45,394 bases of DNA from a virus: IMG/VR virus record IMGVR_UViG_3300033153_004077, positions 1 through 45,394 of that record. One strand, 5' to 3'. Shown one piece after another: positions 4,580-44,905 of the stretch (positions within the stretch are counted from its first letter, which is position 1; each line of letters opens with the position of its first letter). The notes below the pieces were generated by a model. The model searched no databases. It saw only the letters and a list, made by a program, of their open reading frames with translations, and was not told the DNA's origin. Both the position numbers and the translations under genes were made by a program.

Positions 4580-5224
4580 ATGAAGAAAATTCTTTCATTG
4601 GTGATCGGTGCCATATTCGTTTGTGCCGTATCGTTTGCATCGGTAACAACGTATCTGGACAATGCTGAAATACAGGACACGCTTACATTCGACAGCGCGG
4701 CAGTAGTCCAGCGAACGAAAACCTTCACGTTTAATTTTGAAAAGATACAGGGGCAGGAGGGGATACCGACCCGCGTTGAGCAGGGCTTGTTTCAGGGCTA
4801 CAGCTTGCCGGTGTTCGCCGCTGACAACGAGGAGTTGCTGTCCTGTGACTGTATGCCCAGCGATTGGGACGGCGTTACCGACCCGGTATTCGCAATCGGC
4901 GGATGGCTGTCCGGCATAGAAGACACGAAGAAGTTCAACATGCAGATGGAGTTCGAGACATACGACATTGTAAATAATGCCGTAGTTCCGGCCACAACGA
5001 ACGCATATCCCGTTGAAACGGATACGGGTGATGCGGCACAGTTCAAGTCATTCTTCGTCTTGTTTACCGTTGACGCTTCAGACATCGGGCTTGCGGCGGG
5101 GCAACCGCTCGGCTTCCGCATCAGGCGTATAGCGGCTTCGGAAGATGAAATCGACGGCGAGTTCGTCGTCGAGGGTTGCCAGATGATTTATTACGCGAAT
5201 AAGATTGGAACAAAATTACCGTAA
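4580..5224 (+). CDS. Secreted-type structural protein with signal peptide
   Basis: A 214-aa protein, third in the run with a Sec signal: MKKILSLVIGAIFVCAVSFA, with likely cleavage near SFA/SVT. The mature domain looks like a compact beta-sandwich with a CDC pair and a late single Cys (VEGCQ). It starts 12 nt after the fibre stop behind GGGGGG, so it is probably translated together with the fibre. It could cap or anchor the fibre; this is inference from adjacency. The family is not recognised. Confidence 0.75.
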   Translation: MKKILSLVIGAIFVCAVSFASVTTYLDNAEIQDTLTFDSAAVVQRTKTFTFNFEKIQGQEGIPTRVEQGLFQGYSLPVFAADNEELLSCDCMPSDWDGVTDPVFAIGGWLSGIEDTKKFNMQMEFETYDIVNNAVVPATTNAYPVETDTGDAAQFKSFFVLFTVDASDIGLAAGQPLGFRIRRIAASEDEIDGEFVVEGCQMIYYANKIGTKLP

Positions 5225-11107: not shown

Positions 11108-14100
11108 ATGCCGATAACGCCGCCAGAGACAAAAAAGACTGGCATATCTCCACCGCCAGAAGAACAGGCTGTTGAAGAATTCCCGCAAATAAAGATGAAT
11201 TTACCATTTGATCGTCCGCTTGATACGTCATTCTTTACATTGGCCGGACAGGAAAAACGTGCGAAGCAAACCCTTGCACCATTTAGAGACGCGCGTGAGA
11301 TTCTACCCGCCGTAGGCCGCACCGCACTTGGAACGGCAGGCGCACTCATAGATGTTCCTGAATTCGCGGAGACGGCCACCGGCTATCCCGCCGGGAAATT
11401 AGGCATAAAAGCACCGCGACCTATCAAGTGGACATCCGAACAGATTGAACGCGGCATAGAAGAACTTGGCGGCAGGGATATGTATTCATGGTATGGTGAA
11501 ATTATTCCAGACATGGTGTTGATAGCGTTAACGGCAGGTGGTGTGGAAGCGGCGGCATCAACTATAAGGGTTGGCAAGTGGGGACTCAAGGCAGTAAGCG
11601 CAAAGAAGGTGGCGGCGACACTTAAGGGCATGAATTTGAAGCAGGCCGCCGCGTATATTGCGAAGACATACGCTACAGAGGTTCCCAAGGCGGCGGTAAA
11701 GCTGGGTATTACCGGCACAATATATGAGACAGTCACAGGTGAAGCAGAAGAATTACCAGAAAGGGTAATCGAGGGCGTGAAGCACGGTGCGCCGTGGGCG
11801 GCACTGGCGTTGGTTGAGCCGGTTTTCCCAATTATTGGCGGCATTAAGGGGGCGAGAATATCGCCAAAAGCAAGAATAAAAGCAGCCAAAAATCTTGCGC
11901 GGGGTGTGCCCCAAACAAGGATGCAGTATTTAGAAACAAGGGCAAAAGAAATGGGCGTAGATATTGCCTATTTAGAGGATGTTGGTGCGGCTGAGTTGGA
12001 AGGCAATTTATATTTTGATCCAACCTACAATAGAATATTAATGCGTAAAAATGCCGATGCACGGCTTTATACGCCGGGGGAATTTACACACGAATTAAGA
12101 CACAAAATAGACGATACGCTTGGGTTAGAAAAAACAATAAGAGAAGCCATGACACCTGAGCGGTTTGAGGAAATGGCGATATATCTAAGGCGCAGACGCG
12201 ACCTGATAGGCCAGTCAATAGAATATGCGCCTATAGAAACAGCCAACACGGTTATAGATGCCGTTCTTAGAAATGACAGAGATTTTGCAAACAGGTATCC
12301 AGAAGTATTCGCCGCCATTAACACGCCAGAATTAAGAATGTTTGAAAGAATGAATATTCCTTACGAGGAATATATGGCAACGCGAGCCATAGCCGAGCGC
12401 GAGGTAGCCGCCGCAGGGCTTGGAACTCGACCGCCGACACCGAGCAAAATAAAAGTAGGCGAATATGTATTTGCCGCTGATAGGCAGAACTATGGAAAGG
12501 TGTTAAGTATCGGCGAGGATACCGCAAGCGTTCATTTCATCAGCAGGGAAGGTGTGGAAGCAACGGTTGATTTACCGCTTGACGTATTATCGGGTGCCGG
12601 GAAGAGGCTACCGGGGAAAACGGCGATGGGCGTCACGGTTGATCCGAGCATGGGGCCGATACGAAAGGTCAGGGATGCAGTAGATCGCGTATGGCATGAA
12701 ACGCTATCTGATTGGGGCATATTCGATTATCCAGAGTTCGGCGGCAAAGCCACCGGCCTATATCCGCGCAGAACAAACTTAACAGGTGCTGGCAATCGTG
12801 CGCTTGATGAGGTGAAGAAAGCGTTTGTGCCGATGCTTGAACGTCGCGCTGGAATACAGATAACGTATCAGGATGGCACTAAAGAAACAGGCATCAATCT
12901 CGCTGAAAATCTTGCGCGGTCACGGCGTTCAAAGCAGATATTGGCTGACCCGAAACGCGGCGAGAAATGGCTACCAGAGGGTGAGGCTGAATTTGTCATC
13001 AGCGCGGAACAGCGGTTGGAAACAGTGCGGAGACAAGGCCCAGATGGGATAAAAGCTGCCGAGGAAATAGAAGCACTAGTAGATGAGGTCGGCGCGTTGG
13101 GCGATGCGTTGGGTGACAGGTGGATGAAGAACGATCTTATCGGCTGGAAAGACCGCGCCGACATGAAGCTGGCAAATGATTATTACGTTCCGTTTCAGCG
13201 CATAGTCAAGGCCGACAGACTGCGGCAAAACGTAGGACTACCACAGGCAACCAAAACAATCAGGCGCATGTTCGGGAGCCGCCGCGAGATTGATAACGTA
13301 TTTATAAACCTTACTGAAAATTATCTTGGGATGTTGCCAGAAATGGAGCGTCAGGTTTTCAGGCGCGATGCTGTTGATGCACTGCTTGAAAGCGGATATA
13401 CGGGGATAAGGCCAGCAACAACACAGCCCGTAATAAACTTGCAGAAGGACATCAATGAAATATTCCGCGCTGGCGGCATAGAAGAAGTACCGACCAAATC
13501 AATGCAACGTGCATTTGGCCTTTTCAGAAAAACCGAAGGGCTGAAGCGCAATCAGGTAGAAGTTATCAGGGTCAAGGATGGCCGACAACACAGACAGGTT
13601 TACGATATTGACAACGTGCTGATAGCTGACCAGATCAACATGAATCCGGTTCATGCGAATCCGACAGTTCGAGCGGCGACTTACGTTGCCGACAGACTAC
13701 CATTCTGGTCGGAAAAGTTCGGATTAAAAACATTCAAGGAGATCAAACGCGCTGGCGTGACACTGAATCCAGACTTCTTCTTGGCAAACTTCGGGAGAGA
13801 TACCATACAATCACTCATTGGCGATTCAACATTAGTCCGCGACCCACGCGGCAAGGGTGTGGTTGGAACGGCGCAATTATTTCAAGATGCACTCACATTT
13901 CTTCCAGTGTCTGTACCACGCCGTATTATTGTAGATATTCCGTATATGACTGCAAGGCTTGTGGGAGTACCAATCGAGGACATGTTCGGGCTGACAAAAA
14001 GGGGCGGAAGGCCGGGTCAGTTCACGCAGTACCCGCGTTTCTTTGAGGAAGTAGGGGCAACACATGGCGAGTTCTTCCGGCGCGGCGGTGACGCCAAACA

Positions 14101-17006: not shown

Positions 17007-17037
17007 GCCGTCCTTCACGGGGCGGCACTTTTTATTT
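17007..17037 (+). terminator. Rho-independent terminator of the late operon
   Basis: A 7-bp GC-rich stem pairs 17007-17013 with 17020-17026 (one G-U pair), with a 6-nt loop, followed by ACTTTTTATTT. It lies 32 nt after the last late gene and just before the next promoter. Confidence 0.85.
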
Positions 17038-17046
17038 GGATAGGTA

Positions 17047-17074
17047 TTGACATGGCAGTAAATGTATGTATAAT
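17047..17074 (+). promoter_or_regulatory. Sigma70 promoter, exact consensus boxes
   Basis: TTGACA at 17047-17052 and TATAAT at 17069-17074 are separated by 16 bp. The ATG at 17081 is 7 nt after the -10 box, at the expected start of transcription. It should drive the operon 17194-25239. Confidence 0.9.
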
Positions 17075-17080
17075 GGTAGC

Positions 17081-17203
17081 ATGAACCGGGAAGATCAATC
17101 ACACGAATATATTTTTGAGCAGCGGGGCGGTTCCCCTTTCTTCCCGGTCAGTGTTGCCGTCCCGTTGTTCTTTTTTATTAAAAGGAGGATGACATGTGCT
17201 TAG
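17081..17203 (+). CDS. Putative leaderless leader ORF (40 aa)
   Basis: The ATG coincides with the predicted transcription start, so there is no room for an SD. The 40-aa frame contains HEYIFEQRGGSPFFPVSVAV, then a Phe-rich hydrophobic stretch and KRR. It ends inside the next gene. The DNA also forms a 9-bp closing stem, so the region may act as RNA, as peptide, or as both. Translation is unproven. Confidence 0.45.
   Translation: MNREDQSHEYIFEQRGGSPFFPVSVAVPLFFFIKRRMTCA
17085..17148 (+). promoter_or_regulatory. Structured 5' leader (9-bp closing stem)
   Basis: ACCGGGAAG (17085-17093) pairs perfectly with CTTCCCGGT (17140-17148). Inside, GGGG/CCCC forms a small hairpin (about 17124-17136). 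Two other operon leaders have the same layout with different stem sequences, which supports an RNA structure. Confidence 0.6.
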
Positions 17204-28999: not shown

Positions 29000-29098
29000 T
29001 CACACTCCCATTAAAAAAGAGAACCCCCGAACAGCACGGCGCGAACCTGTAGCTATCCGGGAATTCTCATTGTATTTGTTGGTTATGGTTCGCGCCAT
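29000..29098 (-). CDS. Putative leader ORF (32 aa)
   Basis: The frame starts about 11 nt after the predicted transcription start, with a weak AGGA site, and ends 3 nt before the next ATG. It begins MARTITNKYNENSRIATGS. It coincides with a structured leader, so coding is uncertain. Confidence 0.4.
   Translation of the reverse strand: MARTITNKYNENSRIATGSRRAVRGFSFLMGV
29038..29096 (-). promoter_or_regulatory. Structured 5' leader (10-bp closing stem)
   Basis: GGCGCGAACC (29096-29087, - strand) pairs perfectly with GGTTCGCGCC (29047-29038), enclosing 39 nt. A T-rich tract and the SD of the first gene follow. The layout matches the leaders at 17085 and 34624. Confidence 0.6.
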
Positions 29099-29115
29099 GT
29101 CTTTATCCTGCTCGT

Positions 29116-29144
29116 ATCATATCACGCTACCATTTATTTGTCAA
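29116..29144 (-). promoter_or_regulatory. Sigma70 promoter of the leftward operon
   Basis: On the - strand, TTGACA (29144-29139) and TATGAT (29121-29116) are separated by 17 bp. It drives 28996-25453. Confidence 0.85.
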
Positions 29145-29930
29145 TACCTTTTTAATAATAGTTGAAATGTCCTTTATCCATGCTGTTATTATTTTTCATC
29201 TCATGGCCGCATTATCATTTCACTGTGATTTATTCATGCGGCTATCACTGGTTGCGCCCTGCTCGCACGTTCACGCTCAACCCCTGCCCTATCCATGCCG
29301 GTCAGCTATCGTTATGGTATCGCGTGTATCACTTACATCTCCCTATCGCTTCATACATGCTTCTTCCTTATTATATCTTTAATGCATTTAATGCATTTAA
29401 TGCAGTAGTACTTTCAATGCAGTAATGCATTTAATAATAACTGATGTTTAATAATAATAACATGTTTTATCATTTTGTCTTTAATCATTGTGCCCTTGCC
29501 TGCATATTATTTATATGCACCCTGCATATCTTTCTTATGCACTGTGTAACGCATTACCCATATCCTTGATAGCCATGCACTCAATGGTGGTGTCTGACTG
29601 CACCTATCATGCACAATGTATTAAATACTTTTGAATTGTCCTTTAGTCACTGGTGTTTTCATCAAGACATCATATTAATCATTATGCGACGTTATTTAAT
29701 ACATGATTATGATGATTAATGTGTCAATAATGACACAATGAAGGGGGGCAGGGGTGTACCCTCGACCAAGGCGGCACCCGTTCGTGTAGTATAATGGTGG
29801 GGGAGATATTAGAGATAGAGATCGCGTGCATGACTATAAAATATATTATAATTTCAAGATGATGATAAATTCAAATAGTGACACTGATGATGATAAAAAA
29901 TATAAAATATTTATGATTTGATTGTGATGG
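29145..29930 (+). other. Noncoding control region, candidate replication origin
   Basis: About 790 bp without a convincing gene, lying between divergent promoters. It is AT-rich in the second half. It holds an inverted repeat GCCGCAT/ATGCGGC (29206-29212, 29236-29242), tandem TTTAATGCA repeats (29378-29404), a TGCATAT/ATATGCA palindrome (29501-29519), and GTGCATGA words at 29826 and, inverted, near 29606. A TATAAT at 29790-29795 has no good -35. Short ORFs here lack SD sites and protein-like composition. Confidence 0.55.
29378..29429 (+). repeat. Tandem 9-bp iteron-like repeats
   Basis: TTTAATGCA occurs three times without a gap (29378-29386, 29387-29395, 29396-29404). Looser copies follow (TTTCAATGCA 29412-29421, GTAATGCA 29422-29429). 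An AT-rich TTTAATAATAA stretch comes next, a layout typical of initiator-binding sites beside an unwinding element. Confidence 0.6.
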
Positions 29931-32380: not shown

Positions 32381-32409
32381 ATCCTACCATCGTATTGACA
32401 TAAAGTCAA
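32381..32409 (-). promoter_or_regulatory. Leftward sigma70 promoter, overlapping a rightward one
   Basis: On the - strand, TTGACT (32409-32404), 17 bp, TAGGAT (32386-32381). Its -35 box lies inside the spacer of the rightward promoter, 3 bp from that promoter's -35. Confidence 0.8.
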
Positions 32410-32423
32410 GTGCATGATACAAT
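32395..32423 (+). promoter_or_regulatory. Rightward sigma70 promoter, overlapping a leftward one
   Basis: TTGACA (32395-32400), 17 bp, TACAAT (32418-32423). The repeat AAGTGCATGAT occurs at 32408-32418 and 32424-32434, straddling the -10 box, and may be an operator. Confidence 0.75.
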
Positions 32424-32429
32424 AAGTGC

Positions 32430-32492
32430 ATGATTAAGCGAATAATGCAGTGGATAAGGCGTATCTGGTGGCGAATAATTTATCCCCAATAA
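32430..32492 (+). CDS. Putative leaderless cationic peptide (20 aa)
   Basis: ATG at 32430 lies exactly 7 nt after the -10 box. The product MIKRIMQWIRRIWWRIIYPQ is rich in Arg, Lys, Trp and Ile, strongly amphipathic and net positive, like membrane-active or leader peptides. No SD is present. Translation is unproven. Confidence 0.45.
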   Translation: MIKRIMQWIRRIWWRIIYPQ

Positions 32493-32509: not shown

Positions 32510-32538
32510 TTGACACACCCCCCAATCCATGCTATGCT
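32510..32538 (+). promoter_or_regulatory. Sigma70 promoter with inverted repeat
   Basis: TTGACA (32510-32515), 17 bp, TATGCT (32533-32538). CCATGC (32527-32532) and GCATGG (32546-32551) form an inverted repeat around the -10 box, a possible operator. An ATG at 32548 opens a 14-aa frame that ends in the next gene. Confidence 0.75.
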
Positions 32539-32584
32539 ATCATCGGCATGGGGAATCACACAGACAATTTAACGGGAGGGCGAC

Positions 32585-32788
32585 ATGGATAAAGTCCCCA
32601 AGGCAATATCTGAGGGCGTCGTTACTATAATGGGACACCAAATGAAGGTCTATCAACTCGATGATGGTAGACGGGTGATCGAGCAAAATGACCTTGAGGA
32701 GTTTTTTAGAAAAATGGCAAGCGGAGAACTCACGGAAGAATTAGACCAGAATGAATTAAAAAAACTGTATCCGGGCCATGAATTATGA
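32585..32788 (+). CDS. Small hypothetical protein
   Basis: A 67-aa protein with SD GGGAGG. A beta hairpin (VVTIMGHQMKVYQLDDGRRV) is followed by an acidic helix with ELTEELDQNELKKL. Possibly a small regulator; no family is recognised. Confidence 0.7.
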   Translation: MDKVPKAISEGVVTIMGHQMKVYQLDDGRRVIEQNDLEEFFRKMASGELTEELDQNELKKLYPGHEL

Positions 32789-34587: not shown

Positions 34588-34616
34588 TTGACATCCCGGA
34601 AGGATCGTGATATGAT
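34588..34616 (+). promoter_or_regulatory. Sigma70 promoter
   Basis: TTGACA (34588-34593), 17 bp, TATGAT (34611-34616). The ATG at 34623 is 7 nt after the -10 box. Drives the operon 34732-38324. Confidence 0.85.
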
Positions 34617-34622
34617 GATGGT

Positions 34623-34730
34623 ATGGGACGTACCAGAATCACAATACATTGTTTCAATGGCATGGCGGCGGCGTGTGGTACGTCCCAGTTCCCCTGTCCC
34701 GTCCTGTCATTGAAAGAAAGGATTGTGTGA
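34623..34730 (+). CDS. Putative leaderless leader ORF (35 aa)
   Basis: ATG at the predicted transcription start. The frame contains MGRTRITIHCFNGMAAACGT and stops 1 nt before the next gene's ATG, an arrangement suited to translational coupling. It coincides with a 12-bp stem. Translation is unproven. Confidence 0.45.
   Translation: MGRTRITIHCFNGMAAACGTSQFPCPVLSLKERIV
34624..34687 (+). promoter_or_regulatory. Structured 5' leader (12-bp closing stem)
   Basis: TGGGACGTACCA (34624-34635) pairs perfectly with TGGTACGTCCCA (34676-34687), enclosing 40 nt. This is the strongest of three operon leaders with this architecture. Confidence 0.65.
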
Positions 34731-34731
34731 T

Positions 34732-34911
34732 ATGCTTCTCGTATCAGAAACATTCAAAATTGGAAACACTTGTTACGAACGGTTTCACGATGGGGAATGG
34801 TATGAATGTGCGGGAGAGCCTTACGACGCGGACATTAAGGTTGAAGACGAGGACGCAATAGACGACCTCGAAGATATTTATCAGCAGCAGTGGTCGCGTG
34901 ATGAAAAATGA
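34732..34911 (+). CDS. Small acidic protein
   Basis: A 59-aa protein. ATG 34732 preferred; an in-frame TTG lies 9 nt upstream. A beta-rich start (LVSETFKIGNTCYERFHDGE) is followed by a very acidic C-terminus. Overlaps the replication gene by ATGA. Confidence 0.65.
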   Translation: MLLVSETFKIGNTCYERFHDGEWYECAGEPYDADIKVEDEDAIDDLEDIYQQQWSRDEK

Positions 34912-35750
34912 CCGGATACGTCAAGATACATCGAAAGATTCTTGAGTCCGCTGAGTGGAAATCGTTAAGTCCTGAAGGGTTTATGGTGATGATGACGATT
35001 TTACTGAACTGCAATTATGGGGAATCCGAAGCCTTGATTGAGGGACAGGTAAGGAAAATCCTGCCCGGACAGTGGCTGACGAGCCGGAAACGCATTTTAG
35101 AGACAATCGGAAAAAACCGCATCACAGATAAGAAAATCCGCACTTCTCTGAAAGTTTTAGAAACTACCGGATTTCTGGCCAACGAAGTGACCAAGGGTAA
35201 TCACCGAATTATTACAGTAAACAAATGGTTTTATTATCAGGGAAACAATCATGCGGCCAAGGAAAGGGCCAACGAAGGGCCAACGAAGGGCCAACGAAGG
35301 GCCAAATCAGAAGAAGGGAAAGAAGGGAAAGAAGGGAAAGAAAAAGATATATACAAAGAAATTTACGATTACTGGCAGGAAATGCCTGAACTTCACAAAC
35401 ATCGAGCCTTCAAGGGAACCATGATGGAAAGAATCATCAGGGTAATAAACGGCAGGATTGACGAAGGCCATAATGCCGAAGATATTCAGGGGGCTATCAA
35501 GAATTATAATGATGCTCTTGCTGATCCCGGAAATTTTTACACGTACAAGTGGACACTTGAGATATTTTTAGCCAGAAGTAACGGTTTCCCGGTCTTTGTG
35601 GACGGCATACCCGGCAAAAAAGAAGAACAGATAGACCCCGAACGTCCACCCGATACCCATCCTTGGAATTACAAGAGCCTAAACCCCGACAAACTTGACA
35701 AAACACAATGGATAGATGCACATCCTGAATGGTTGGAGGCGCATAAATGA
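34908..35750 (+). CDS. Replication initiator / helicase-loader-like protein
   Basis: A 280-aa protein. The N-terminal winged-helix domain (YVKIHRKILESAEWKSLSPE; QWLTSRKRILETIG; IRTSLKVLETTGFL) is typical of phage replisome organiser proteins. A Lys/Glu-rich linker (about 117-150) follows, and a C-terminal domain (RVINGRIDEGHNAEDIQGAI; FYTYKWTLEIFLARSNGF) resembles the conserved phage C-terminal/DnaD-like domain. It would bind the origin and recruit the host helicase. No phage polymerase or helicase was found, which fits reliance on the host. Confidence 0.8.
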   Translation: MTGYVKIHRKILESAEWKSLSPEGFMVMMTILLNCNYGESEALIEGQVRKILPGQWLTSRKRILETIGKNRITDKKIRTSLKVLETTGFLANEVTKGNHRIITVNKWFYYQGNNHAAKERANEGPTKGQRRAKSEEGKEGKEGKEKDIYKEIYDYWQEMPELHKHRAFKGTMMERIIRVINGRIDEGHNAEDIQGAIKNYNDALADPGNFYTYKWTLEIFLARSNGFPVFVDGIPGKKEEQIDPERPPDTHPWNYKSLNPDKLDKTQWIDAHPEWLEAHK

Positions 35751-36370
35751 AAGTCCTTGTTGCGTGCGAATTCAGCGGGATTGTTCGTGATGCTTTCGCG
35801 GCGCGTGGACACGACGCCTGGAGTTGTGACCTGTTGCCGACCGAAAGACCAGGCAATCATATTCAGGGCGACGTTCTTGAAATACTTGACGATGGTTGGG
35901 ATTTGATGATAGCACATCCGCCATGTACTCATCTTTCATTGTCTGGAGCGCGTTGGTTCAAAGAAAAACGCGCTGATGGTAGGCAAAAAAACGCGATTGG
36001 CTTTTTTATGAAATTTATAAACGCGCCAATAGAAAAAATATGCGTTGAGAATCCCATGAATATCATGGGAAAAATTCATAGAAAACCAAGCCAAATTATA
36101 CAGCCTTATTATTTCGGAGAAGAAGCGCAAAAAACGACATGGCTTTGGTTAAAAAATCTTCCGCAATTAATACACGTAGAAAAAGACGATCTTTTTGACA
36201 AAAAAACTCACTCCGCTAAGGGTGAATTTTATATACCCCCGAACGGCAAAAAGATGCCAGCTTGGTATGCCGCAGCGGGAAGATTAAGCAAAGAAGCTCG
36301 GAGCGCGGTACGGAGCCGTACTTTTCAGGGCATTGCCGATGCGATGGCCGACCAGTGGGGGAATCAATGA
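35747..36370 (+). CDS. C5-cytosine DNA methyltransferase-like protein, short form
   Basis: A 207-aa protein. SAM-site motif I lies at about 7-29 (CEFSGIVRDAFAARGHDAW). The catalytic AHPPCTHL with Cys60 and an ENPMN motif (about 101-105) are present. The C-terminal RSRTFQGIADAMADQW matches the last conserved helix. It is much shorter than typical C5 enzymes and lacks a clear target-recognition domain; such short forms are common in phages. It probably methylates phage DNA against restriction. No partner endonuclease is present. Confidence 0.75.
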   Translation: MKVLVACEFSGIVRDAFAARGHDAWSCDLLPTERPGNHIQGDVLEILDDGWDLMIAHPPCTHLSLSGARWFKEKRADGRQKNAIGFFMKFINAPIEKICVENPMNIMGKIHRKPSQIIQPYYFGEEAQKTTWLWLKNLPQLIHVEKDDLFDKKTHSAKGEFYIPPNGKKMPAWYAAAGRLSKEARSAVRSRTFQGIADAMADQWGNQ

Positions 36371-38395: not shown

Positions 38396-38424
38396 TTGAC
38401 AGCATTGCACTTAATGTGCATGAT
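38396..38424 (+). promoter_or_regulatory. Late-operon sigma70-like promoter
   Basis: TTGACA (38396-38401), 17 bp, CATGAT (38419-38424). The -10 region contains TGTGCATGAT, a word shared with the divergent promoter pair at 32395-32423. The ATG at 38431 is 7 nt after the -10 box. It is the only clear promoter I see before the packaging and structural genes. Confidence 0.75.
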
Positions 38425-38430
38425 GGTGGC

Positions 38431-38538
38431 ATGAGCAATGCGTGTAACCGCTTACACACAAAATGTTTGTGCGACTGTTTTACCACACCCCCCGATAAAA
38501 CATATCAGAGAAAAGGAAGTGTCACATGGCCAGAATGA
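38431..38538 (+). CDS. Putative leaderless leader ORF (35 aa)
   Basis: ATG at the predicted transcription start. The Cys-rich frame (MSNACNRLHTKCLCDCFTTP) ends within the next gene. The same DNA forms two small hairpins, GTGTAA/TTACAC (38442-38457) and CACAAA/TTTGTG (38457-38471). Translation is unproven. Confidence 0.4.
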   Translation: MSNACNRLHTKCLCDCFTTPPDKTYQRKGSVTWPE

Positions 38539-38858: not shown

Positions 38859-39223
38859 CACCCGATTTCGCCGACGTTGATTTGAATTCCGTCAGCGGGG
38901 TAAAGCAATACATTCAGGACTTAATGGAGTCGGCACGGGTAGCGATTGAGAATAATGACACGAAGGCGACGGAGAAGGCGAAGGGATATGCCAGCATAGT
39001 TTCGATGGCGAAGGTGACGATTGACCTGATAGCCGTTGACCGCGAGGAAGAAATCGAGGAAATAAAACGCGATCTTCAGAAGATAGGGCAAAAGTCAGCC
39101 GCCATAACGGAGGAAAATGCGAAGTACAAACTGGAAATATCGGGGTTGAAGAAAGCACTGGAAGCGGCCAGTTCAAAGGTTAAAGATTATGAAGACAGGT
39201 ATGTGAGGACACAAATAAAGTGA
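38708..39223 (+). CDS. Small terminase subunit candidate
   Basis: A 171-aa protein. A disordered Ala/Gly/Lys-rich start is followed by helices and a C-terminal coiled coil (RDLQKIGQKSAAITEENAKY; LEISGLKKALEAASSKVKDY). The place directly before TerL and the helical makeup fit a TerS, but no DNA-binding motif is clear. Its start overlaps the previous gene by 151 nt. Confidence 0.5.
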   Translation: MSGRKTGAAETPVPPDPDKYFGGKKTGAAARAAAKAEAGKEKRREENFFVAPDFADVDLNSVSGVKQYIQDLMESARVAIENNDTKATEKAKGYASIVSMAKVTIDLIAVDREEEIEEIKRDLQKIGQKSAAITEENAKYKLEISGLKKALEAASSKVKDYEDRYVRTQIK

Positions 39224-41091
39224 TAGGAATTAAACGGCGCACAGAGACATTCGATGACAGCATAGTTGCGCTACGCAAGGAAATTGTCACCATCGGTAAT
39301 ACCCTTGATGCCGACCGCGAGATTCCCCGGATGCACTTTGCGCGTTCGGATATAGAGCAGCTAACGATAATAAACTTTTTCCCCCCCTTCAACAAAATTA
39401 AATTTCCGATGAACGCCGGACAGGTATTGCTTCTTGATGACATTAACGACATGCTGGCCAATGATCTTCCGGTAAGAGACCTTCTGTTAAAAGACAGGAA
39501 GTTCGGCGGATCGACCCTTCTGTGTGCCTTGGCGTGGTTGATGATGCGTGACTATCACCTGAAGGGCGTTATCATGGGGCAGAACCTGAAGGCTGCTAAT
39601 CACCTTTTCAGAACGGTCAAGCTCATGTGCATGACTGACCCGAAGCGCAGGTCAAAACCGCAGACACACAACAAGCGCGAACTCATATTTCCAGAGGGCG
39701 GCGAGGTATGGGTTGGTAGTGCTGATTCGCCGGACGCCACGCGCTCAGACACCAATCAGTTTGTAATTGGAACAGAGTATGCCTTCTGGCCGCGCCCTGA
39801 AACCCAAATGCGCGATCTATACAACACTGTTTTGGAAGAAGCGGGGACATTCTTTGTGCTTGAGTCCACCGCTAATGGCATGAACGATTTTCAAAACAGG
39901 TGGGTTGAAGCGAAGACGCCGCCGATCGACGAAGATTATGGGATGGTACGCTGGAAAAACACATTCGTCGGATGGCCGCAAGTGCCGGAATTGTATTCAA
40001 AACAATTCAAGAATCTGGCAAAAAGAGAAAAGTTTCTGAAAAAATTAAGCCCTGCGGAACAAAGACTTTTAGGCGAAGGCTATTCGGCAGAACAGCTTTT
40101 GTGGCGGCGCGGGAGAATTAAAACAGCCCCAGGGTGGACAGTGAAGGCAAAGTTGGAATCGTTTTATCAGGAATACCCGGAAAATGATACCGAAGCGTTC
40201 AGACATTCGGGCCGACCCTTCTTTGAAACGCGAATACTCAATGAAATGTTCGATGAGGCGAAAGCCGACTTCACGCCAATATTTACAGGCGAAGTAGATT
40301 ATGATGCGGAGATTGAATGGGGTGAGATTGCCGCCGATCCGAAGTTGTTAGAGAAAGCCGTAAGCGAGGTCAGCGACGGGCGGTTAAGCGTGTGGGCATG
40401 GCCGGAACCGTATGTTGATTATGAGATAGGTGCGGATGTTTCGGAGGGGCTTGAAGAAGAAAGCGGCAAAACGGATGACAGCGCGTTCTGCGTAATGCGG
40501 CGCGATACCGGGGAATATGTTGCGACGTGGCGTGGAAAAATTCATCCCGAAGATTTGGCCTATCTGATGACCGCCGTGGGCCTCATGTATAACGAGGCGT
40601 ATAACTGCACCGAAGAAAACCAGCACGGATTTGCCACGTTGTCGGTTCTCGAAAAGGATTACCCGGCGCACAGAATATATCGGAGTAAACGCGGTGAAAA
40701 CATAAACGATCAACAGCAGACGGAACGACTCGGATTTAAGAGTAACCGACTTACCAAGATGCCGATGCTCGACCGCTTCGCAAGGGCAATCAGGGAACGA
40801 GCGGTGAAACTTTATGATCTTCAGTTGCTTTCCGAATTGCTTGGGGCAGTAGCAGATAAGAATGGGCGCGTGGAAACCGGGGGGAAAGACTTGCTCATTG
40901 CTGCGGCGCTAACGTGGGAAGCCCACAATCAGGCGGATGATTACCAGAAGGCGCCACGCGCTAAAACGATAAATGACGAATACCGAGAATGGCGGCGCGA
41001 TAACGCACTGAAGTCAGCGCGGACAAGATCAATGTACGAAACAAAACCAGTAAATCACACATGGGCTATACCAAGGGTGACTTATGGCTAA
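39220..41091 (+). CDS. terL: Terminase large subunit
   Basis: A 623-aa protein with a GTG start overlapping the previous stop. ATPase part: a Walker A-like RKFGGST (93-99, lysine displaced, as in some TerL), Walker B FVIGTEYAFW with Glu186, and coupling motif STANG (216-220). Nuclease part: GADVSEG with Asp406, TEENQHG (about 464-470) and Asp557 in GGKDLLIAA. It cuts concatemers and pumps DNA into the procapsid. Confidence 0.9.
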   Translation: MIGIKRRTETFDDSIVALRKEIVTIGNTLDADREIPRMHFARSDIEQLTIINFFPPFNKIKFPMNAGQVLLLDDINDMLANDLPVRDLLLKDRKFGGSTLLCALAWLMMRDYHLKGVIMGQNLKAANHLFRTVKLMCMTDPKRRSKPQTHNKRELIFPEGGEVWVGSADSPDATRSDTNQFVIGTEYAFWPRPETQMRDLYNTVLEEAGTFFVLESTANGMNDFQNRWVEAKTPPIDEDYGMVRWKNTFVGWPQVPELYSKQFKNLAKREKFLKKLSPAEQRLLGEGYSAEQLLWRRGRIKTAPGWTVKAKLESFYQEYPENDTEAFRHSGRPFFETRILNEMFDEAKADFTPIFTGEVDYDAEIEWGEIAADPKLLEKAVSEVSDGRLSVWAWPEPYVDYEIGADVSEGLEEESGKTDDSAFCVMRRDTGEYVATWRGKIHPEDLAYLMTAVGLMYNEAYNCTEENQHGFATLSVLEKDYPAHRIYRSKRGENINDQQQTERLGFKSNRLTKMPMLDRFARAIRERAVKLYDLQLLSELLGAVADKNGRVETGGKDLLIAAALTWEAHNQADDYQKAPRAKTINDEYREWRRDNALKSARTRSMYETKPVNHTWAIPRVTYG

Positions 41092-43003
41092 GAAGACAAT
41101 AGCGAGAGTGGGTCGGTACACAGTCGAGAAGAACACCCCGATTGATGCCACCGAGCCGGACATCGAAGATTACAGTTCCGGCAATAGCGAAGAAGTCCTG
41201 AAGTTTGTACTGTCCACCTATGATGACTGTGAGCGGCGGCATGAATCGCGCCTTGATATATGGCGGAAAAACCGTGATGCCTACGAGGGGGAAGATGTAG
41301 ACCTGTGGGGCGGGGCGGCAACGGTACGAACCGATAAAGACGAAGAAGCATTTGGAAGTACGTTGCTTCCAGATGAAATTCACGCCATTGTCGCCACTCA
41401 GATGCGTGGCAACCCAAGGGTTTACCCGCAACCAGTAATCAACACGGAAGGCTTTGAAAAACATGCCGATCCGGTAATAGTCCAGCCGCTACTTGAAAGC
41501 GGAATGTCGTCGGAAGAAATTGTTCGACGTTATTGGGAAGCCATTGTAGACGACTACATTGAGCGCGACCACATAAACGAGAAGCGATTCATCATGGGCG
41601 TGGATGGACGGCTTGAAGGATTAAAAGCATCCATGCAGCACATCGAGTTTAACGATGATATTCAGGCCAATGATGTGAAACGCACGCTTTTTGATAATCG
41701 TTACCTGAAATTTGATCCCGCCGCTAAAAGCGAATTGGATATGAGATATTATTCAATTGACACGTTCCCCACGCTGTTTGAGGCAAAGCGTGAATGGTCA
41801 AAACATAAAAGAGACATAATTAAAACCGAAGAAAAGAATGTTGATAAATCCAAGTCCGAAGAAGAAGACGAACACAAAGACAGGGTGAAGGTTGTCATAA
41901 TGTATTTCCGTGACAACACGACACACAAGGTTCCACAGCCGCCCATCCAGACAACTGATCCGGTGACGGGTGAGCCGTACATGGAGCCGCAGCCGGACGC
42001 GATTGAGCGCAAATATCCGAGTGGCAGGGTAATTAAGTTTATTCCAGATTTGAATATTTTACTGGAAGATGAGCCGAATGAATATCCGTGGTTCAATATC
42101 GCGCTATTCGTACCTACGCCGACATCCAGAAGCATATACGGAAAAGCCCTCGCAACGCCGCTACGACCACTACAGGCACTTCATTCCGTGTTCTGGCAAC
42201 AGATGACCGCCAACGTGGTTGCAAATGCGAATACGCAAACCCTTTATAAAGAGGGTGCGCTAATAGATCCCGAAAATGATACCAACGCGATAGGGTTGAA
42301 AATACCCGTCCGTCGGCTAAGTGATGTTGACCGCCAACCGGCGCGGGCTATCATCGGCGACATTGGAAATGCGATAGCGATGGTTGAGGACAGAGCTAAA
42401 AAAATATCAGGCATATATGAATCGTCACAGGGCAAACTCCCGGCAAGTGGTACGAGTGGACGCACAGTTCTCGCGCTTCAGGCAGGCGCGGAGCAGATGA
42501 CAGGGCCGACCCGCAATCAGGATCACCAGTATATGTACCGAGCATGGAAGCAGACGCTTGATCTCATGCTGATAACGTACAAAAAGGGCCGCATGATAAG
42601 GATGAAGGAAGAAGACAATCTTCCGCCCATGCTCCCGTTTAATCTCGTAGATGTTACGGCATCCATAGATTGCACCATCGGCGACGAAGCCCACTTCCCG
42701 GCTGACCCGATTTCACGGCTTGAATTTGCCGTACAGATGATGCAGATGAAAGACGGATTCGGCGTACCGCTCGGAACGGCTGAATTTGTATATGAATTCT
42801 TAAACATTCCCGGCAAAAAGAAATTACTCGCAAGCCGACAGGCAGAGATAGATCACTTGAAAGAACAGCGTGAACAGGCAGTACAGGGGATTAACGCACC
42901 GCAAACAAATACGGCACAAAGAGGGCCGGGTTCGACTACATCTGCAAATTTAACACAGGGAGAAATAGCATCTGCGGCGGCTAATCCCGCCGTTGAAGCA
43001 TAA
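41084..43003 (+). CDS. Portal protein
   Basis: A 639-aa protein following and overlapping TerL. Its length, gene order and segments such as FDPAAKSELDMRYYSIDTF, IYGKALATPLRPLQALHSVF and the Gln-rich C-terminal helix fit the large portals of podoviruses (P22 gp1-like size). It forms the dodecameric DNA channel at one vertex. Confidence 0.85.
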   Translation: MAKKTIARVGRYTVEKNTPIDATEPDIEDYSSGNSEEVLKFVLSTYDDCERRHESRLDIWRKNRDAYEGEDVDLWGGAATVRTDKDEEAFGSTLLPDEIHAIVATQMRGNPRVYPQPVINTEGFEKHADPVIVQPLLESGMSSEEIVRRYWEAIVDDYIERDHINEKRFIMGVDGRLEGLKASMQHIEFNDDIQANDVKRTLFDNRYLKFDPAAKSELDMRYYSIDTFPTLFEAKREWSKHKRDIIKTEEKNVDKSKSEEEDEHKDRVKVVIMYFRDNTTHKVPQPPIQTTDPVTGEPYMEPQPDAIERKYPSGRVIKFIPDLNILLEDEPNEYPWFNIALFVPTPTSRSIYGKALATPLRPLQALHSVFWQQMTANVVANANTQTLYKEGALIDPENDTNAIGLKIPVRRLSDVDRQPARAIIGDIGNAIAMVEDRAKKISGIYESSQGKLPASGTSGRTVLALQAGAEQMTGPTRNQDHQYMYRAWKQTLDLMLITYKKGRMIRMKEEDNLPPMLPFNLVDVTASIDCTIGDEAHFPADPISRLEFAVQMMQMKDGFGVPLGTAEFVYEFLNIPGKKKLLASRQAEIDHLKEQREQAVQGINAPQTNTAQRGPGSTTSANLTQGEIASAAANPAVEA

Positions 43004-43879: not shown

Positions 43880-44905
43880 ATGCCAGACGCTGATGTCCAA
43901 TCAGTTATAGCATTACTATCCGACCTTCAGCTTGACGGGCCGATAAGGGATATGATTACAGGACTGCGAGATGCGGTTTCCGAAGCCCATCCGACCTTCA
44001 AGTTTATGGAAGACAACGCGAAGTCGCCGTTTACCGGCGCAGATATTACCGAGTGGCACGTCATGCACGATCTTCCCAAACCGGAGTATTACAATGCGGC
44101 GAAAGAGCTTGCGACCGTAAAACATGAGGGTGAAATTGGTATGTCCCTGAAAAGGGCAAACCAGTCACTCGCTATCGTGTATTACAGAACAGACAGAATC
44201 CGCAACATGGGGAAAGACAAGCAGAGAGATTTTGTTGCCACGCGTATCGACATGGCCAGAAAAGGATTCGGTGCGACACAGGCCGTACACCTTTACGGCG
44301 ATGGAACAAATGACCCGGACGGCAACGCGCTTGACCCCGACGGCTTTCAGCCCCTCATCGGCTTCGGCGCGAGTATGCCGACCGATCCGACCACGGGCAC
44401 TTACGGCGGACAGAGCCGTGTGACCTATTCGGCTATCCGCAGCAATCAGGTAAGCATTGCCGATCTCGACGGTCTGACCATCGGCGTGATGGACGAGGCA
44501 GTTTCCAAGGCCACGCATGTCGGCGAAGGCCCGAACCTGATAACGATGAGCGCACAGGCCTTCAGAAAGTTCAAGGCGCGGGCGCGGGCGGAAGGTTACA
44601 AGGATACCAACAAGAAGGCAATCGATCTCGGCTTCCCGAACAACATCGACTTCGGTGGAATTCCCGTCATACCCGATCCGGCAATGTCGGCGACCACGGA
44701 CAGCGGCCTTCTGACGAGCAACATGAAAGCCGTGTTCATTCACAACACGAATCAGTACGAATGGCATGTTGATCCGAATGACGACCTGCTGCTGGAAGAG
44801 CCGATGCAGCGCACGGATCAGCACACCTATGTCCAGTATATTTACTGGTCGGGCCAGTTCGTAAACACAAATCCGCGTTACGGAACGCGAATCTGGTGGA
44901 CATAA
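43880..44905 (+). CDS. Major capsid protein
   Basis: A 341-aa protein with AAAGGAG upstream. Segments such as NAKSPFTGADITEWHVMHDL, SLAIVYYRTDRIRNMGKDKQ, LITMSAQAFRKFKARARAEG and the C-terminal FVNTNPRYGTRIWWT fit an HK97-fold coat protein of this phage group. It follows the scaffold and precedes a decoration-type gene, the standard order. No separate delta domain or protease is present. Confidence 0.85.
   Translation: MPDADVQSVIALLSDLQLDGPIRDMITGLRDAVSEAHPTFKFMEDNAKSPFTGADITEWHVMHDLPKPEYYNAAKELATVKHEGEIGMSLKRANQSLAIVYYRTDRIRNMGKDKQRDFVATRIDMARKGFGATQAVHLYGDGTNDPDGNALDPDGFQPLIGFGASMPTDPTTGTYGGQSRVTYSAIRSNQVSIADLDGLTIGVMDEAVSKATHVGEGPNLITMSAQAFRKFKARARAEGYKDTNKKAIDLGFPNNIDFGGIPVIPDPAMSATTDSGLLTSNMKAVFIHNTNQYEWHVDPNDDLLLEEPMQRTDQHTYVQYIYWSGQFVNTNPRYGTRIWWT

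Follow-up and report, generated by a model that had tools for sequence, protein, structure and literature searches.

Crossing stems and short open reading frames in the operon leaders of a phage: a possible translation-gated RNA switch

A phage genome that carries structured leaders directly behind several of its best predicted promoters raises the question of how such leaders act on the operons that follow. Here, the window denotes the whole stretch of DNA analysed, a 45,394-bp IMG/VR virus record with a GC content of 49%. No near-identical DNA was found in the phage collection searched, near relatives were absent from the collections tested, and IMG/VR contained no close relatives of the helicase loader, the terminase or gene 18310 of the window. 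Two early genes resemble Bacillota phage genes, from which a Bacillota host can only be guessed. The genes referred to below are:

34732-34911, plus strand: first gene of operon A, 59 aa, no assigned function
34908-35750, plus strand: DnaD-like helicase loader (PHROG 2514, E=2e-19), second gene of operon A
35747-36370: DNA methyltransferase
39220-41091: terminase
41084-43003: portal
43880-44905: major head protein

Of the four sigma-70-like promoters that score highest in the scanned region, three (11-12 of 12 consensus matches) are followed by leaders A, B and C, and in each leader a closing stem (S1) begins 7-16 nt past the -10 hexamer of the predicted promoter.

34588-34616, plus strand: predicted promoter of leader A, TTGACA-17-TATGAT, consensus scan 11/12
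34624-34635, plus strand: S1 5' arm of leader A, TGGGACGTACCA, spanning the leader start codon
34676-34687, plus strand: S1 3' arm of leader A
17047-17074, plus strand: predicted promoter of leader B, TTGACA-16-TATAAT, consensus scan 12/12
17085-17094, plus strand: S1 5' arm of leader B
17139-17148, plus strand: S1 3' arm of leader B
29116-29144, minus strand: predicted promoter of leader C, TTGACA-17-TATGAT, consensus scan 11/12
29087-29099, minus strand: S1 5' arm of leader C, 13 nt including one G-U
29035-29047, minus strand: S1 3' arm of leader C

The earlier note had described closing stems after these three promoters, and a script re-derived all of them: 12 bp with a loop of 40 nt in leader A, 10 bp with a loop of 44 nt in leader B (17085-17148), where the note had counted 9 bp, and 10 bp with a loop of 39 nt in leader C (29096-29087/29047-29038, minus strand). 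With one G-U pair included, the last reaches 13 bp (29099-29087/29047-29035). Taken alone, S1 departs modestly from chance: the window holds four stems that reach 10 bp or more and enclose loops of 30-55 nt, against 0-3 in shuffled sequences, and a 12-bp stem of this type occurred in none of three shuffles. It is the position just after the top promoters, together with a second, crossing stem, that marks S1 as non-random. Because the S1 arms are unrelated from leader to leader, pairing is conserved without alignable sequence. The note had called this covariation; the pairing is indeed kept, but the term is loose for arms that are unrelated between leaders. MAFFT did not align the leaders correctly, and no single leader has a close homologue.

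The second stem (S2), previously unreported, is formed by the 3' part of the S1 loop and the sequence just downstream of S1, and has 13-17 bp in leaders A, B and C. Its arm pairs are TTTCAATGGCATGGCGG / CCGTCCTGTCATTGAAA, GAGCAGCGGGGCGG / CCGTCCCGTTGTTC and GAGAATTCCCGGA / TTCGGGGGTTCTC, one for each leader of the window.

34652-34668, plus strand: S2 5' arm of leader A
34699-34715, plus strand: S2 3' arm of leader A, followed immediately by Shine-Dalgarno-like GAAAGGA (34716-34722)
17117-17130, plus strand: S2 5' arm of leader B
17157-17170, plus strand: S2 3' arm of leader B, followed directly by a terminator-like T6 (17171-17176)
29056-29068, minus strand: S2 5' arm of leader C, 13-nt core
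29019-29031, minus strand: S2 3' arm of leader C, followed directly by T6 (29018-29013)

Since strand 1 pairs with strand 3 in S1 and strand 2 with strand 4 in S2, the two stems cross in the topology of an H-type pseudoknot. When both strands of the whole window were scanned for crossing stems, leaders A-C ranked 1-3 with scores of 63, 61 and 58.5; the next site not overlapping a leader scored 40, and the best score in 30 dinucleotide shuffles of the window was 45.5. The crossing-stem score of a leader was matched in 0/3000 shuffles of that leader alone. With S1 fixed and the rest shuffled, S2 recurred in 1/5000 (A), 0/5000 (B) and 0/5000 (C). T6 lies immediately 3' of S2 in two of the three window leaders (B, C), although in the 45 kb such runs are found at only 9 positions on the plus strand and 41 on the minus strand.

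The same scan was run on 80 viral loci collected via the methyltransferase. It was revealed that the crossing-stem leader has an independent second occurrence in an unrelated phage, L032 (IMGVR_UViG_3300002219_000048), with a score of 64.5. One phage carries long crossing stems ahead of three operons, and the fourth case lies in a phage whose protein neighbourhoods are not closely related to those of the window apart from the methyltransferase. The L032 leader starts 7 nt past a predicted promoter, TTGAAA-17-TATAAT; its S1 arms are TGGCAAAGAT / ATCTTTGCCA, and its S2, of 20 positions, recurred in 0/5000 shuffles with S1 held fixed. It, too, stands shortly before a replication-type gene (11182-11886), which is replisome-organiser-like by inspection only, and a search with the helicase-loader-like gene of L032 returned only itself. 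In all four leaders, as judged from pairing potential, the loop of one stem pairs outside it.

In 6.54 Mb of fetched DNA (both strands), a score of at least 46 combined with a promoter of at least 9/12 was found only in the four leaders and in L185 (46); no frequency is claimed, since the fetched loci are a non-random sample. Locus L185 was set aside: it has both stems (S2 given S1, 0/3000) and a T-run, but it is without a leader ORF and faces a converging gene. This AT-rich site (4685-4810, plus strand), with its perfect promoter, crossing stems of 9 and 14-15 bp and T-run, may be a standalone phage RNA. Locus L304 was also rejected: it has a promoter, an ATG at +1 and an S1 of 11 bp, whereas its S2 lacks significance (971/5000). 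On its minus strand, in the stretch from about 5829 of the reverse complement onwards, the ATG at +1 lies inside the perfect 11-bp stem AGCATGGAGAT, after which a Shine-Dalgarno sequence and a new operon follow. Scanning about 1.1 Mb of further viral DNA, six isolate phages and 80 prokaryote contigs yielded no new members. Pattern scans were made for a promoter with AAYCAC, a promoter with ATG at +1, and both; among the matches listed, none passes both stem tests and has a leader ORF. The covariance model R1 recovered its four source sites, but its genome search missed the known positive G001, and its empty results are thus uninformative.

The similarity that the earlier note had seen in the 5' parts of the loops is real and can be written as AAYCA(C/A). 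In each of the four leaders, the motif starts 1-2 nt past the 5' arm of S1 (p = 10/2000 in shuffles of L1, fourth member included).

34637-34642, plus strand: L1 motif AATCAC of leader A
17097-17102, plus strand: L1 motif AATCAC of leader B
29079-29084, minus strand: L1 motif AACCAA of leader C

A conserved peptide was ruled out as its cause, the motif occurring in all three frames. Since the reading frame differs between leaders, AAYCAC/A is a feature at the RNA level.

All four leaders are also short ORFs of 32-40 codons, open through both stems.

34623-34730, plus strand: leader ORF A, 35 codons, ATG at the predicted +1, stop directly before the next ATG (34732)
17081-17203, plus strand: leader ORF B, 40 codons, ATG at the predicted +1, overlapping the next gene (17194)
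29000-29098, minus strand: leader ORF C, 32 codons, ATG at about +12 and preceded by AGGA, stop 3 nt short of the next gene (28996)

The L032 leader ORF has 38 codons and likewise an ATG at the predicted +1. In 4/4 leaders the ATG falls within the 5' arm of S1 or immediately ahead of it, and in 3/4 it is exactly 6 nt past the -10 hexamer, at the predicted +1, leader C being the exception. The stop falls 1-3 nt before the next ATG in A and C, and the ORF overlaps the next gene by at most 10 nt in B and L032. By shuffling, a frame that stays open and ends in this way has a probability of 0.10 for A, 0.11 for B, 0.12 for C and 0.07 for L032, and jointly about 1e-4 for the four. All four thus have a short leader ORF that ends where gene 1 starts, as expected of attenuation or translational coupling. 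Inspection of the four peptides (MGRTRITIHCFNGMAAACGTSQFPCPVLSLKERIV, MNREDQSHEYIFEQRGGSPFFPVSVAVPLFFFIKRRMTCA, MARTITNKYNENSRIATGSRRAVRGFSFLMGV and MAKINHVFIIGIASAHQAWLSLPKVAITDGLILFKRTE) revealed no common motif, no arrest motif and no control codons. The earlier note's proposal of a shared leader-RNA architecture is supported, with L032 as a further case, but not its description as a single stem around a large loop, because S2 crosses S1 and an ORF overlaps both.

Further short ORFs follow promoters elsewhere in the window. Behind the promoter at 38396 (38396-38538, plus strand) there is an ATG at the predicted +1 and a 35-codon ORF (38431-38538) that overlaps the next gene (38526), and no crossing stems are present; leader ORF and crossing stems can thus part. 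At 32395-32492 (plus strand), a promoter with an ATG at +1 precedes a 20-codon ORF, MIKRIMQWIRRIWWRIIYPQ, coding for a strongly cationic amphipathic peptide. At 32510-32592 (plus strand), an ATG 9 nt past the -10 box opens a 14-codon ORF overlapping the next gene, with AATCACAC in the leader and no stem.

Since all four leaders are short ORFs with an ATG at S1 and an end by the start of the next gene, we propose that ribosome loading and folding probably compete on a translated, coupled leader, in an attenuator-like manner. The anatomy suggests how it might switch. A ribosome loaded on the leader AUG would hold S1 and S2 open, transcription would go on, and gene 1 would be translated by coupling to the leader ORF. 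When no ribosome is loaded, S1 would close first and hide the AUG or the first codons, and S2 would then form, either as part of a pseudoknot or in place of S1. The predicted outcome of S2 formation is that the operon is turned off, by termination at the T6 run bordering S2 in B and C, or by crowding of the Shine-Dalgarno sequence beside S2 in leader A and L032. AAYCAC/A after S1 may be read as RNA and serve as a site for landing or recognition. That the leader is such a translation-gated RNA switch is a serious possibility, which we rate somewhat short of an even chance. The leader ORF without crossing stems at promoter 38396 speaks against it, as do the lack of a visible arrest motif or common peptide, the absence of the T-run in 2/4 members, and S2 loops which, at 24-32 nt, are longer than usual in intrinsic terminators. 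The wider claim that these leaders form a new class of phage leader RNA, in which a leaderless leader ORF within two long crossing stems, marked by AAYCAC/A, gates whole operons in unrelated phages by ribosome loading against co-transcriptional folding, is tentative and rather doubtful. If the switch works as proposed, the phage would read the translation capacity of its host directly at operon starts via leaderless leader genes, and the leaders would offer a simple, testable reporter system. A search for their defining geometry in other genomes requires no sequence identity.

The earlier note had also named a riboswitch, an attenuator and a protein-binding element as candidates. A classic metabolite riboswitch is unlikely, because apart from AAYCAC/A no core is conserved, and nothing in Rfam matches: Rfam 15 gave no family at the gathering threshold in the whole window, and the four leaders, searched with E up to 5, gave only weak unrelated matches, mostly to microRNA families. 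An attenuator-like and a protein-binding element are both possible. In the latter case, a phage or ribosomal protein would bind via AAYCAC/A and the knot and repress or activate translation of the operon, the ORF being secondary. Such an operator would explain why stem sequence varies freely and the motif shifts frame, yet the shape and the single-stranded motif persist, and why the same element stands on several operons of one genome, as in a regulon; gp32 on the T4 gene 32 leader is a precedent (PMC3014915). Since no candidate regulator is identified, the Shine-Dalgarno lies within 0-12 nt of the knot where T4 has a gap and an A+U-rich stretch, and the coupled leader ORFs are left unexplained, we consider a protein operator somewhat unlikely. 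S1 might instead shield the 5' end, a stem at +1/+2 locked by a second stem guarding the mRNA from decay by RppH, RNase E and RNase J. The onset of S1 at the predicted +2 (A, L032) or +5 (B) and the presence of little else in the leader would suit this, but about 11 unpaired 5' nucleotides in leader C do not, and a shield requires neither S2 nor T6 runs nor an ORF, which makes it an improbable explanation.

A structural variant of the switch would have S1 and S2 as kinetically separate, alternating hairpins that form no true pseudoknot. Nested minimum-energy folds contain S2 and lack S1 (-27 to -38 kcal/mol, against -10 to -22 kcal/mol for folds with S1 only), and in leader C just 3 nt (L3) are available to cross the 13-bp S1, which raises steric doubt about coexisting stems. 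True alternatives usually share nucleotides, however, and S1 and S2 share none; moreover, the gap from the S2 5' arm to the S1 3' arm is 7-8 nt in 4/4, a spacing that was limited by the scan window. Alternating hairpins are judged very unlikely. The put sites of HK022 are structured antitermination RNAs directly after phage promoters, with nested hairpins, and are not translated. A put- or EAR-like RNA for processive antitermination, which would modify RNA polymerase as it enters a long operon, shares with our leaders the position straight after the promoters of three window operons; since the four leaders have no Rfam match by gathering threshold or E-value and, in contrast to put with its two hairpins, have crossing stems and a predicted translated ORF, it is highly improbable here. 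Finally, the arms could be inverted repeats acting as operators at the DNA level, or could be due to chance. The S1 arms of leader A are near-palindromic (TGGGACGTACCA), but the remaining S1 arms are not palindromes. In the four members, the non-Watson-Crick positions of S2, read on the transcribed strand, comprise 10 G-U pairs and 2 mismatches, and departures that are mostly G-U favour an RNA of the transcribed sense over DNA repeats. As the shuffles exclude chance, this last explanation is hardly credible.

Among known systems, the translation-gated switch can be compared with the trp, ermC and cat attenuators, in which a short translated leader and competing stems lead to a terminator-like or Shine-Dalgarno-masking outcome. 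Our leaders resemble them in the short leader ORF and the two stems, with the T6 run (B, C) or the Shine-Dalgarno (A, L032) beside S2 as candidate counterparts of that outcome, but differ in that pairing is 1:3 and 2:4 with no common strand and that arrest or control codons are not recognised. The repY-repZ leader of ColIb-P9 contains a translated ORF to which the downstream gene is coupled, with a loop-type pseudoknot of short pairing and an antisense RNA. Translation of repZ in this plasmid (IncI-alpha, with IncB and IncL/M relatives) needs the pseudoknot upstream of its ribosome-binding site (PMC8383071). The phage leaders share, by pairing potential, the pseudoknot topology upstream of a gene and, by prediction, the coupled leader ORF, whereas they are not plasmid-borne and have two long stems and a predicted leaderless AUG. 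With regard to an antisense RNA of the ColIb-P9 type, the promoter listing has no site of at least 10/12 on the opposite strand beside the leaders. The gene 32 mRNA leaders of phages T4, T2 and RB69 contain a translation-controlling H-type pseudoknot (PMC3014915); the T4 knot is separated from the start codon by 67 nt, has an A+U-rich coating site and serves one gene. A 2010 review of T4 stated that it may be the sole viral pseudoknot known to autoregulate translation (PMC3014915). Our leaders have in common with it the phage leader and, by pairing potential, the H-type topology, but their stems are far longer, lie near +1 of several operons and are overlapped by ORFs. ColIb-P9 repZ (PMC8383071) and the T4 gene 32 leader (PMC3014915) are thus the nearest working analogues, and membership in neither is claimed.

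Some minor observations were made on the same DNA. The operon-end terminators at 17007-17026 (plus strand) and 25421-25401 (minus strand) of the window have almost identical stem sequences (GCCGTCC...GGGCGGC). The stretch 29400-29760 is AT-rich, without clear genes, and flanked by divergently transcribed regions; inside it lies a 12-bp inverted repeat (29616-29627/29693-29704). Among the other viral loci, L490, L491 and L497 have a common leader after a good promoter, with an ATG at +1, before a gene starting MPAKFK, and their leader peptides are MKRKRKPHFP or MKRKGNHIF, AAACCACATTTTCC.
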